Position numbers and translations under genes: made by a program | Notes under the pieces: generated by a model | Told to the model about the DNA's origin: nothing | Database searches by the model: none | What the model saw: only the letters and a program-made list of their open reading frames with translations | In this document: positions 22,730-25,643 of the stretch, in pieces | Layout: each line of letters starts with the position of its first letter | Position numbering within the stretch: position 1 is the first letter of the stretch | NCBI RefSeq assembly: GCF_021531715.1 | Contig: NZ_JAFBIT010000001.1 | Coordinates: 124,001 to 188,000 of the forward strand | Length of the DNA stretch: 64,000 bases | Direction: 5' to 3' | DNA from: Anaeromassilibacillus senegalensis | GTDB taxonomy: Bacteria > Bacillota > Clostridia > Oscillospirales > Acutalibacteraceae

Positions 22730-22770
22730 GAAAAATAGACATAAAAATCCCCGCCCGACCGTAACGTGCT

Positions 22771-22988
22771 CTCAATAACCTGCTACGTTAGAAGCAGGTG
22801 GGTGCTCTCCCGCAGGGTTCTCGCTCCCTTCGTCCAACGCCGGTCAAGCCGGCGCCGGGAGGTCTGCAGTCCGCCTGCGGAGGCGGGCTCCCGAAAATTT
22901 GAGTGTAGGGTTATTCTTGCACGGTCCGCGTATCGGGCAGGTGGTTTTAGTGTTTGCCGGCGCACAAGGGTTATGCGCGGGAGGTTAT
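22771..22988 (-). repeat. Strongly self-complementary element between azlC and DUF1292 gene
   Basis: About 218 bp bounded by inverted ends AATAACCT (22771-22778) and AGGTTATT (22981-22988). Next to these, the CTCCCGC and GCGGGAG arms also pair. Inside are ACCTGCT/AGCAGGT (22775-22798 region), CGCCGG/CCGGCG, CCGCCT/AGGCGG nested in CGGGAG/CTCCCG, and GCGCA/TGCGC. AGGGTT occurs three times. The TAA stop of the DUF1292 gene lies inside one end. There is no ORF. It could be a structured leader of azlCD, a small RNA on either strand, or a MITE-like insertion. Orientation is set to minus only because flanking transcription is minus. Confidence 0.5.
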
Positions 22989-23293
22989 TCCTCTTCTTCC
23001 TCCATAGCCTGTGCGTAGCGAGACTCGAAAATATCGGCCAGCTTGTCGAGCAGCTCCTCGTCCTCAACCTCGGAAAGCTGTTCCTCGCCGTCCACATTGA
23101 CGACCTCAAAGATATAATACTCGTCGGCGTCTGCGATCTCACCCTCCGCGTCGCGCAGTGTCGGGATCAGCGCCATGAAGTAGCCGTCATCATTTTCGAT
23201 CTCATCGATGATTTCAAATTCATGCTCGTTGCCTTCGTCGTCCAGCAGGACAACCAGATCGGCCTCGTAATCCTGTTCGTTCTCTATGCTCAT
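22985..23293 (-). CDS. DUF1292 (YrzB-like) acidic protein
   Basis: A 102-aa very acidic protein. The DUF1292 core is YEADLVVLLDDEGNEHEFEI followed by ALIPT and EYYIFEVV, and it ends in a Glu-run. The family is widespread in Firmicutes and of unknown function, usually near ruvX/alaS. The start is ATG 23293, because GGAAGGA lies 12 bases upstream and an in-frame TTG at 23314 would overlap that RBS. It has its own consensus promoter and is divergent from the large RNA gene. Confidence 0.85.
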   Translation of the reverse strand: MSIENEQDYEADLVVLLDDEGNEHEFEIIDEIENDDGYFMALIPTLRDAEGEIADADEYYIFEVVNVDGEEQLSEVEDEELLDKLADIFESRYAQAMEEEEE

Positions 23294-23344
23294 GGCAAGT
23301 AACAGTCCTTCCAAAATAAACTCAGAGTGTCTCTCTGCTTACTA

Positions 23345-23430: not shown

Positions 23431-23459
23431 TTGACAAAATGAACAACGCGTGATAACAT
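23431..23459 (+). promoter_or_regulatory. Promoter of the large structured RNA gene
   Basis: -35 TTGACA (perfect, 23431-23436), 17-bp spacer, -10 TAACAT (23454-23459). The predicted start is near 23466. A/T-rich DNA (23385-23430) upstream resembles an UP element. No protein gene follows for 1.2 kb. Confidence 0.85.
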
Positions 23460-23465
23460 ATAGAT

Positions 23466-24551
23466 GAAAAGAGGAAGACCTCCAGAGAACGCAAAGTAGA
23501 TCGAGAAATCAAAGAAGATTTTGAAGGAAGCAAAAGCTTCAAAAAGATCGAAGCGGTTCAGCGTGCGGGACAAAAATCCCGAAGGTGAAAAGGCGCAGGA
23601 GAGAACTCTTGATGCAGCATTTCTAAAGATCCGACATGGTCATTCAAATGAAAACGCGAAGGCGGAAAACCGGATCTGTAGAAGGTATCCGGAGAATTTG
23701 GGGAACTGAAATCCATTCAAAGCGAAAACAACATGTACAAGCTTGTGATGGAAAAGTTCAGATGGAGATTTGAAGAGCAATCTCAGAAACGACACGGATA
23801 AGGAAATGCTGTGAGAGCCGAAAGGCAAAGATTAAAAAGAAAGCAGGTGAGGCCAATGGCTAACGAACCCCAGCAGTATATCGTCCGTGGTACATTGTGC
23901 CTCGGATAAATATACAGCAAAGAATGAAATCTGTATAAGGAAAAGACAGAAAATCGTTTCAATCCATGTGATGGCGAAGTAAAAATCTGTATACTGGTAA
24001 ATGCCGGGAGAACGGCGCAGAAGACAGAAAAAGGCGAAATGCTTAAACTTCGGCAGATCAAAGAGAAAAACAAAAATCTGAAATTTCCACCGGAACCAAA
24101 ATGCGAGAAGCAAAGAGGAAATCCGGACAGATAAAGGAATTGCCTATATCAGTTACAGCCGGTTTTATCAGATCGATAAAGCGGAAAACGGCACAAACAC
24201 AGACTTTCAGATTTATATGCACGCGATATTTCAGGCTTTAAGAAAGCTCGGGATCGAAAAGCGAGTCCCAAAAGGTTCAGCGTTATGGCATAAGAGAATC
24301 TAAAAGTTATGGATGATATAACGATTCAAATCAAATTTAATATAGAAAAACAAATAATTTGTTTGGAGTTGTTTCCAATGTACGCGTGATTACCCTGAAA
24401 GCCAGACAAAAGCTGTGACATCCGGGATAAACCGGAAGAGGACAGTCCAATGCACAGAGTAATTTAGGTCGAACATCGACACGATAAAACACACAACACA
24501 CAAACAGAAAGATCAAAAGGGCTTTTCCGGAAATTGGAGAAGCCCTTTTTA
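23466..24551 (+). ncRNA. Large (~1.1 kb) structured noncoding RNA, class unknown
   Basis: Between a consensus promoter and a 13-bp terminator stem lie ~1,085 bases with no convincing gene. The base make-up (A/G-rich, low in C and T) is unlike the GC-rich neighbours. Helices paired by eye: 23471-74/23479-82; 23519-26/23537-44; 23566-70/23577-81; long-range 23615-23/23803-11 (9 bp) closing a domain; 23627-33/23671-77, competing with 23670-75/23687-92; 23712-16/23748-52; 23765-70/23779-84. Further helices: a GAAA tetraloop at 23817-26; 23849-58/23893-903 (10 bp, one bulge); 23911-17/23931-37; 24003-06/24013-16; 24158-61/24189-92 enclosing 24162-69/24175-82; 24235-39/24243-47; 24250-56/24262-69. 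Towards the 3' end: 24296-300/24323-27 enclosing 24306-10/24318-22; 24348-54/24358-64; 24413-17/24453-57 enclosing 24421-25/24432-36; 24468-72/24476-80. Loops are purine-rich. Size recalls the ornate GOLLD, ROOL and OLE RNAs; membership is untested. Confidence 0.8.
24516..24551 (+). terminator. Terminator of the large RNA gene
   Basis: 13-bp stem 24516-24528 / 24536-24548 (one G-U pair, loop GGAAATT) ending in a run of T. It follows an unpaired A/C-rich linker (24481-24510). Confidence 0.93.
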
Positions 24552-24725: not shown

Positions 24726-25643
24726 ATGAATGATAAAAAGATGTATGACGTTGTGATTGTCGGCGCAGGCCCGGCAGGATTGACGGCCGCGCTGTACTGC
24801 GGCCGTGCGGGCTTCGATACACTGGTGCTCGAAAAGCTCTCGCCCGGCGGGCAGATGGCGACAACAAATGAGATTGAAAACTATCCGGGCTTTCCGGGTG
24901 TGACCGACGGCTTTTCGCTTGCGATGAATATGAAAGCGCAGGCGGAACAGTTCGGAGTACAGCAGGATTACGCCGAGGTGCTCGCGCTGCGCACAGAGGG
25001 GGATATCAAGCTCCTCGAGACGAAAAAAGGCACGCTGCGCGCGCGCAGTGTGATCCTTGCACCGGGCGCCGCGCCGCGTCTGCTCGGGCTGCCGAACGAA
25101 AGCGCGCTGCGCGGCAAGGGCGTGTCGTATTGTGCGACATGCGACGGCGCCTTTTACCGCAAAAAGACGGTCGCAGTTGTGGGCGGTGGCGACACGGCCG
25201 CAGCGGATGCGGTATTCCTTTCTTCGCTCTGCGAGAAGGTCTACCTGATCCATCGCCGGGATAAGTTGCGCGCTTCAAAGAGCTATACAGCAAAGCTCGA
25301 TAAACCGAATATTGAGATGGTCTGGAACAGCGTCGTGGAGGAGATCCTGGAGAACGGCCGCGTCTGCGGCATCCGTGTGCGCAACGTTCAAACGAACGAG
25401 GAACGACAGATCGACCTGAACGGCCTGTTTGTGGCGGTCGGCAACGTCCCGGCAACGGATTTTGTCCGCGGCGCGGTGGAACTGGATGCGGCCGGCTATT
25501 TCACCGCAGGTGAAGACACAAAGACGAATATCCCCGGCGTATTTGCAGCGGGCGACTGCCGCAGAAAACCGCTCAGACAGATTGTCACGGCGGCGGCGGA
25601 CGGCGCGGTGGCGGCGTACGCGGTAGAGGAATACCTCTCCTGA
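24726..25643 (+). CDS. Thioredoxin reductase-like FAD/NAD(P) disulfide oxidoreductase
   Basis: A 305-aa flavoprotein of the TrxB fold. The FAD motif is VGAGPAGLTAALYCGRAG at the N-terminus, the redox-active Cys pair is SYCATCDGAF (~133-139), the NAD(P) motif is VVGGGDTAAADA, and the C-terminal FAD motif is GVFAAGDCRRK. It moves electrons from NAD(P)H or ferredoxin to a thioredoxin-like partner. No thioredoxin gene is adjacent. RBS AGAAAGGAATG; start ATG 24726. The GtrA gene follows after 16 bp. Confidence 0.93.
   Translation: MNDKKMYDVVIVGAGPAGLTAALYCGRAGFDTLVLEKLSPGGQMATTNEIENYPGFPGVTDGFSLAMNMKAQAEQFGVQQDYAEVLALRTEGDIKLLETKKGTLRARSVILAPGAAPRLLGLPNESALRGKGVSYCATCDGAFYRKKTVAVVGGGDTAAADAVFLSSLCEKVYLIHRRDKLRASKSYTAKLDKPNIEMVWNSVVEEILENGRVCGIRVRNVQTNEERQIDLNGLFVAVGNVPATDFVRGAVELDAAGYFTAGEDTKTNIPGVFAAGDCRRKPLRQIVTAAADGAVAAYAVEEYLS

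Follow-up and report, generated by a model that had tools for sequence, protein, structure and literature searches.

A strongly folded RNA of about 1.1 kb adjacent to 6S RNA in Anaeromassilibacillus senegalensis: a short peptide gene with a self-complementary start and putative serial minigenes

What is encoded by a stretch of about 1.1 kb that opens with a promoter, closes with a terminator and seems to hold no credible gene in between? This question is raised by a 64,000-nt stretch of the genome of Anaeromassilibacillus senegalensis (contig NZ_JAFBIT010000001.1, positions 124,001 to 188,000; hereafter the window), in which the initial annotation had proposed a large, purely noncoding structured RNA gene of no known class. 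The long RNA follows a 6S RNA gene and a DUF1292 gene, both on the minus strand, and precedes a gene for a thioredoxin-reductase-like protein:

22744..22946, minus strand: 6S RNA (Rfam)
22985..23314, minus strand: DUF1292 gene, divergent from the long RNA
23431..23459, plus strand: promoter, TTGACA (23431-23436), 17 nt, TAACAT (23454-23459)
23466..24551, plus strand: structured RNA gene of about 1.09 kb and rich in purines (A 40%, G 24%), its 5' end deduced from the promoter position
23615..23623, plus strand: 5' arm of a long-range helix that closes a 5' domain of about 200 nt, pairing with 23803-23811
23803..23811, plus strand: 3' arm of this helix, immediately 5' of GAGCCGAAAGGC
24515..24551, plus strand: terminator hairpin of 15 bp, its 3' arm running into five U (predicted fold)
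24726..25643, plus strand: thioredoxin-reductase-like gene, 3' of the terminator

Both promoter elements named in the initial annotation, TTGACA and a -10 element at a 17-bp spacing, were found and match the consensus at 10 of 12 positions; in two congeners the -10 element reads TAATAT. Since 1.4 kb contained three comparable sites with 2.3 expected, the promoter call leans mainly on recurrence in homologues, a similar element being present at the corresponding position in many family loci. The terminator hairpin was recovered as well, with a 15-bp stem in our fold compared with the 13 bp given initially; a terminator scanner returned no entry for it, because its T run lies mostly within the stem. 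In regard to folding, the whole RNA revealed a minimum free energy of -298 kcal/mol, compared with -232 ± 7 for 40 dinucleotide shuffles (z = -9.3), and 150-nt segments gave a mean z of -2.4 in the window RNA and of -1.6, -2.1, and -2.1 in three congeners. The 9-bp long-range helix, also part of the original description, is exact in the window, and string searches located it with different letters in congener G002 (CACAG-U-CUUUC / GAAAGCUGUG) and, with an internal loop, in congener G006 (GCAG..UUUGC / GCAAAG-CUGC). A scan of the region with Rfam 15 yielded no family at the gathering threshold, GOLLD, ROOL, OLE, and raiA included, and only two matches at a relaxed threshold (E 0.86 and 2.2), so that GOLLD, ROOL, OLE, a group II intron, or rRNA, all considered at the outset, are not supported; in 20 family loci and 18 loci of other families, 6S RNA alone matched. 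Thus, on sequence evidence, the window RNA is a real, undescribed, and strongly folded RNA of about 1.1 kb, and the proposal of a large structured RNA gene outside the known classes was supported by the missing Rfam family, the folding energy, and compensating changes in homologues, as was its location in a core-gene region.

A DNA search of 198 relatives, proposed at the outset as a check, matched five genomes. Beyond the own genome it held up in three congeners (G002, G005, and G006), but not in the fifth (G181), where only 32 nt matched, at and around the ribosome-binding site of another gene. While G002 and G006 keep the order of 6S RNA, DUF1292, long RNA, and reductase gene (6S RNA identified by Rfam in G006 and by eye in G002), the G005 contig starts within the RNA. 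Length varies widely, with 1121, 1515, and 941 nt including the promoter. Due to this rapid sequence change, homologues were tracked through the neighboring DUF1292 gene, which is present in 124 of 150 family genomes. Loci were collected from 80 of these 124 genomes and supplemented with 80 named loci, and removal of 18 near-duplicates from 164 sequences left 146 non-redundant loci. Named carriers include Caproicibacter fermentans, Clostridium sporosphaeroides, Anaeromassilibacillus, Acutalibacter, and Neglectibacter. The first plus-strand ORF of at least 110 codons was found 2.5 kb (G083) and 3.5 kb (G041) from DUF1292, and the reductase gene of the window begins 175 nt beyond the RNA, which has its own terminator hairpin. 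6S RNA was linked in 19 of 20 family loci, which had been picked by hand. As judged by eye, a Spo0A-like response-regulator gene replaces the RNA before the reductase gene in two congeners (G001, locus L022; G003, locus L021), and in a third (G103, locus L080) several small hydrophobic-looking peptide ORFs occupy the place of the RNA on the other side of DUF1292.

The description of the region as purely noncoding did not hold: it had overlooked an ORF of 17 codons with a ribosome-binding site at 23856-23909 (sORF1) and, further downstream, start sites at 24378 and 24450. Because a peptide gene and start sites with early stops are present, the RNA is not purely noncoding. The elements concerned are as follows:

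23838..23855, plus strand: Shine-Dalgarno region of sORF1 with its AGGCC core, AGAAAGCAGGUGAGGCCA (consensus in the family ..GGUGAGUCCn)
23856..23909, plus strand: sORF1, 17 codons and stop, MANEPQQYIVRGTLCLG
23884..23906, plus strand: hairpin within sORF1, UCCG-U-GGUAC-AUU-GUGCC-U-CGGA
24263..24268, plus strand: GAGUCC core without AUG or AAG, inside a block kept in G005 and G006 (read directly)
24365..24389, plus strand: start site GGAG...UCCA with AUG-UAC-GCG-UGA, AUG at 24378, without an AGUCC core
24437..24467, plus strand: initiation unit AGAGGACAGUCCA with AUG-CAC-AGA-GUA-AUU-UAG, AUG at 24450

Throughout the loci a unit recurs that consists of a purine-rich Shine-Dalgarno stretch, AGUCCn, and AUG or AAG. 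On the ORF-free RNA strand of the 146 loci we counted 121 copies of this initiation core, compared with one on the opposite strand and 7.8 ± 2.2 in dinucleotide shuffles; the pattern was written after examples had been seen, the controls used the identical pattern, and the counts are not independent because the loci are related by descent. In the 150 family genomes, GGNNGAGTCCNATG had 102 matches, ten of them adjoining DUF1292 (hand count), compared with 63 for a reversed control pattern; being rare elsewhere, the core is not the ordinary ribosome-binding site of the family. At least one core copy was present in 68 of the 146 loci, namely sORF1 only in 33, sORF1 with further units in 25, and units without a called sORF1 in 10. 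The remaining 78 loci were without any unit by this pattern, some of them ending at a contig edge or holding protein genes there, and trimming of the loci at the first plus-strand ORF of at least 100 codons cost some units, e.g., in G083/L225 (about seven by eye). GAGTCC was also the top frequent hexamer (64 observed, 8.5 expected, in 39 loci), a rank that was given no weight because these 39 loci had been chosen for having the motif and it is partly obtained by construction.

In each of 58 loci among the 146, exactly one AUG unit opened an ORF of 16-30 codons, namely sORF1, toward the 5' side of the RNA, and AUG-unit ORFs of 10-15 codons were found in none of the 146; the other units of these 58 loci were located downstream of sORF1 in 41 cases and upstream in two. 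The peptides have a common start, with M, mostly G or D, acidic residues, and often Gln/His at positions 7-8 (congeners: MVSETQQYIIRGTLCLG and MATEPQQQKIRGALRLGSLK), but no shared C-terminal end; the C-terminal half varies freely and overlies an RNA hairpin. sORF1 was the only plus-strand frame clearly matching both G002 and G006. Among 16 close pairs, changes at codon positions 1, 2, and 3 numbered 27, 49, and 58, and 74 of 105 changed codons were non-synonymous and 31 synonymous, so the coding evidence for sORF1 is modest. A conserved frame with synonymous bias and without compensation in the helices had been put forward as an argument against a structured RNA; at most half of this was seen, as a frame is present, its bias is weak, and compensatory changes are found. 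The locus combines a conserved short ORF with a structured RNA, one mark of a dual-function RNA. A decayed DUF4280-like gene, suggested by the sORF1 peptide, was rejected, as Pfam gave no match.

Analysis of the hairpin within sORF1 pointed to a start region that may mask itself. In the window, GCCUC of the hairpin complements GAGGC of the start region, and G006 displays a compensating change from GGUAC/GUGCC to GGUGC/GCGCC. Pairing probability peaked twice, with 0.83 at +30 and 0.78 at +45, compared with about 0.58 in the control; it was also raised over the five bases directly preceding the AUG (0.74, control 0.58) and lowered over the Shine-Dalgarno region 16-20 nt ahead of the AUG (0.42). 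In 17 aligned loci, 87.5% of the hairpin cells were paired compared with 31-39% when the helix was slid, and three pairs were changed on both sides, a number reached by 16 of 500 shuffles. Start and hairpin changed together in several cases: GCGAGUCC with GGGCUCGC, GUGAGUCC with GGACUCAC, UGCAGUCCG with CGGGCUGCG, and AGUCCUA with UAGGAUU. Over the 58 loci, anti-start complementarity had a mean score of 15.46 compared with 11.69 ± 0.26 in shuffles, a control region just downstream was without excess, and after permutation of the loops among genomes the observed mean was reached once in 5000. Single loci attained p <= 0.05 in 24 of 58 cases; the window, with just 5-6 bp, had p = 0.025 and two congeners p = 0.119 and 0.194. 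Fifteen loci from other families, which had not been used for discovery of the pattern and include near-identical pairs, gave a mean of 16.70 (shuffles 11.65 ± 0.55) with 11 of 15 at p <= 0.05 and a marginal loop permutation (226/5000). Thus, over diverse loci the hairpin is complementary to the initiation region and co-varies with it, as in a leader-peptide switch, although in a close alignment (A3) the start/anti-start helix, with 95.6% of cells paired and two double-change pairs, stayed within the shuffle range (of 500 shuffles, 109 attained its covariation score and 48 its share of paired cells). Apart from that, GUACAUUGUG of the sORF1 hairpin (23890-23899) was seen by eye to complement CCAAUGUAC of the first downstream start site (24376-24384), and G006 changes both sides of this complement (GUGCGUUG / CAAUGCAC, also by eye).

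The downstream start sites end almost where they begin. Counterparts of the site at 24378 read AUG-UAC-AGG-UGA in G002, AUG-UAC-GCA-UAA in G005, and AUG-CAC-AAA-UGA in G006, and those of the unit at 24450 read AUG-CAG-UAA, AUG-UAU-UAG, and AUG-UAC-UAA in the congeners. Since a class of minigenes is defined by the early stop itself, units were recounted by position only: later AUG units, i.e., those not first in their locus, had a stop within three codons in 19 of 24 cases, compared with three cases in each of the other frames; by codon 9, an in-frame stop had been reached in all 24. The middle codon varies (AAA, AGA, UAC, UUC, CAA, GCA, or none, as in AUG-UAA), and AUG-AGA-UAA and AUG-UAC-UAA were found in this family and a second one. 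Thus, minigenes with a Shine-Dalgarno stretch, AUG, about one sense codon, and a stop do occur in the family; the two downstream units of the window are looser (3 and 5 codons including the AUG), and its RNA is a modest example of serial minigenes. The early stops are the trace that selection for immediate start and stop would be expected to leave. AAG units had an early stop in that frame in 15 of 29 cases (other frames 4 and 5). An A/G/UUG lies nine bases upstream and in frame in 27 of the 29, which would give M-S-P-K-x peptides, and ATG occupied this place in 8/29 AAG units as against 2/92 AUG units (p = 0.00015). AAG units, in which the AAG itself is no usable start codon, may start at the NUG 9 nt upstream, where in our judgement the Shine-Dalgarno stretch would be very close, or may merely hold ribosomes. 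By the strict pattern, 33 of the 58 sORF1 loci were without a downstream unit, and two short versions read in another family seem to have none either, so minigenes are not essential everywhere.

What could the core bind? In the window, the sORF1 core (GAGGCC) differs from that of the downstream unit (CAGUCC). The complement of AGUCC was not enriched elsewhere in the RNA (GGACU, 18 observed and 21.1 expected; with G-U pairs, 130 and 132.4). Downstream units scored 12.03 with their own sORF1 loop and 13.80 with foreign loops (43 units), and pairing with local flanks was no higher than in shuffles; both partners were rejected. As the downstream AGUCC is kept despite the differing sORF1 core, and has neither a complement within the RNA nor a loop match, its partner probably lies outside this RNA. 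A candidate is the 3' tail of 16S rRNA: its predicted pairing was better than that of permuted cores in 52/58, 23/34, and 26/29 units, the modeled gain from the core being 0.6-1.9 kcal/mol on average and requiring a bulged G. Pairing with 6S RNA was discarded, since GGACU occurs in just 11 of 20 6S sequences and is not conserved; a small GGn..UCC hairpin as the essence of the unit and mimicry of a tRNA T-arm were dropped by eye.

For the spread across the order, a profile of the 56-nt sORF1 start (R1) was built from 43 family sequences. Among 197 genomes from the order, 71 gave a match at E <= 0.05 and 24 at E <= 1e-4, and 16 of these 24 belong to other families (hand count). At the match, 15 of 21 other-family loci examined had an ORF of 16-20 codons, while the remaining six were ordinary or unrelated-looking starts. 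In family f26, genomes retain DUF1292 (as judged by eye) together with sORF1 and units, and of 18 other-family loci scanned, the three with 6S RNA nearby are all from f26. Two loci read from family f13 have shorter forms, about 0.35 and 0.55 kb long, that are surrounded by other genes and seemingly carry sORF1 only; the short f13 versions L250 and L255 share a second block past sORF1, CCGATGGGCATACYGATGRGTATGG (by eye). A class sample of 148 genomes gave only three R1 matches at E <= 1e-4, all from the order of the window and including its own genome. Within the genus, 6 of 7 genomes matched at E <= 0.01, only G000, G006, and G002 well, and the weak match of G005 is on another contig than its RNA. 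In locus L249 (G276, 1518), R1 matched where an ORF of 41 codons with a hydrophobic segment begins; the ribosome-binding core of sORF1 may be used there by another small protein.

Altogether, comparison of homologous sequences reveals a transcription unit with a fold, sORF1, a self-complementary start, and serial minigenes. We infer from these elements, with a probability of roughly 0.45, an independent ribosome-engaging transcript in which sORF1 would act as a translational switch and the downstream minigenes would load ribosomes, most likely protecting or shaping the RNA in cis. The anti-start segment would leave the sORF1 start open when paired with its hairpin partner and close it when paired with the Shine-Dalgarno/AUG region, and a ribosome translating sORF1 would unwind the hairpin. 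On each downstream minigene a ribosome would initiate and then terminate after hardly any elongation, and ribosomes would in this way be spaced along an otherwise untranslated RNA. Their likeliest use would be in cis, where bound ribosomes might shield the RNA from nuclease, fix its folding, or both; amount and shape of the RNA would thus report the initiation capacity of the cell. A role of this kind has been proposed for a two-codon minigene in the txe transcript (PMC8708949).

The same sites could also act in trans: much as 6S RNA titrates RNA polymerase, the RNA might sequester idle ribosomes or 30S subunits, which Shine-Dalgarno stretches, early stops, and AAG pseudo-starts would retain with no protein being made. 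The early stops after the unit starts, the predicted 16S-tail pairing that includes the AGUCC core (better than permuted in 52/58, 23/34, and 26/29 units), and the adjacent 6S RNA in 19 of 20 loci scanned would fit such a decoy; we nevertheless consider it unlikely, since it would require a very high abundance of the RNA, the core contributes little on average (0.6-1.9 kcal/mol, bulged G needed), and the 6S linkage may be mere synteny, with 3 of 18 loci in other families. Somewhat less likely still is that the RNA serves mainly as messenger for the sORF1 peptide, the remainder being a long regulatory UTR. No other feature is conserved as widely as sORF1 (58 of 146 loci, and 15 of 21 in other families), and its N-terminus recurs, yet its C-terminal half is free to vary over the hairpin, close pairs had 74 non-synonymous and 31 synonymous changes, and the downstream minigenes and the folding of the whole RNA would be left unexplained.

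We place similarly little weight on an architectural or base-pairing RNA, i.e., a particle like GOLLD, ROOL, or OLE or a sponge for small RNAs, in which the AGUCC units would be contact sites for another RNA or protein and the AUGs incidental. It would account for the strong folding and for AGUCC being kept in AAG units and, downstream, where the sORF1 core differs (GAGGCC and CAGUCC), but not for in-frame stops in 19 of 24 later AUG units as against 3 and 3, and an AGUCC complement is neither enriched in the RNA nor regular in 6S RNA (GGACU in 11 of 20 sequences). That the region is a decayed protein gene or a chance structure in an A-rich spacer is scarcely credible: several frames of 40-121 codons are open on both strands, and a frame on the antisense strand has a G002 match of 86 codons with 44% identity, but this frame matches G006 over 30 codons only, none of 12 translated frames reached the Pfam gathering score, and the presence in several families, the synteny, and the compensatory changes argue against decay, which for the sORF1 core is refuted by its recurrence and the anti-start tests.

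If the units are used, they would define a class of long bacterial RNA in which the sequence follows a logic of initiating translation repeatedly and not of protein output, and both the role of minigenes and ribosome control of the stability and folding of untranslated RNA would become testable in culturable gut anaerobes. In a more speculative form, which we regard as doubtful, the RNA would be a 6S-linked housekeeping transcript that holds initiating ribosomes on extended Shine-Dalgarno sites, by near-immediate stops or dead AAG starts, and whose sORF1 hairpin senses free ribosomes. If true, this ribosome-parking RNA would be a translational counterpart of the polymerase-parking 6S RNA.

An RNA of like layout was found neither in Rfam 15 nor in the open-licence literature searched. 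Minigenes, dual-function RNAs, and leader-peptide switches are each already known; for their combination in one long, independently transcribed RNA that has a fixed initiation core, the collections searched gave no match. Dual-function regulatory RNAs of the RNAIII/SgrS kind also encode a peptide, and the window RNA resembles them in joining a structured regulatory-type RNA with a short ORF; it differs in its serial minigenes, its apparently self-masking start, and the lack of an Rfam match. In plasmid rep leader-peptide/pseudoknot switches such as ColIb-P9 repY-repZ, the hairpin loop of a short ORF pairs with an initiation region, as seems to be the case here, whereas the loop of sORF1 would pair with the start of its own ORF and no dependent downstream gene is apparent. 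With 6S RNA the long RNA shares the genomic neighborhood and possibly, by analogy, the action of a housekeeping decoy, while Rfam gave no 6S match on the long-RNA region itself. GOLLD, ROOL, and OLE are bacterial RNAs of a similar size class and densely folded (PMC12286853); compared with these, the window RNA has no Rfam match, translated-looking elements, and a very variable length. Alike in their short frames are the minigenes of phage lambda bar and of the axe-txe leader, which consist of an AUG, one sense codon, and a stop, as here; that of axe-txe is described as acting in cis and possibly protecting the txe mRNA from an endonuclease (PMC8708949). In contrast to these minigenes, those of the present RNA are serial, have an AGUCCn core in common, and are carried by an independent transcript without a main protein gene.
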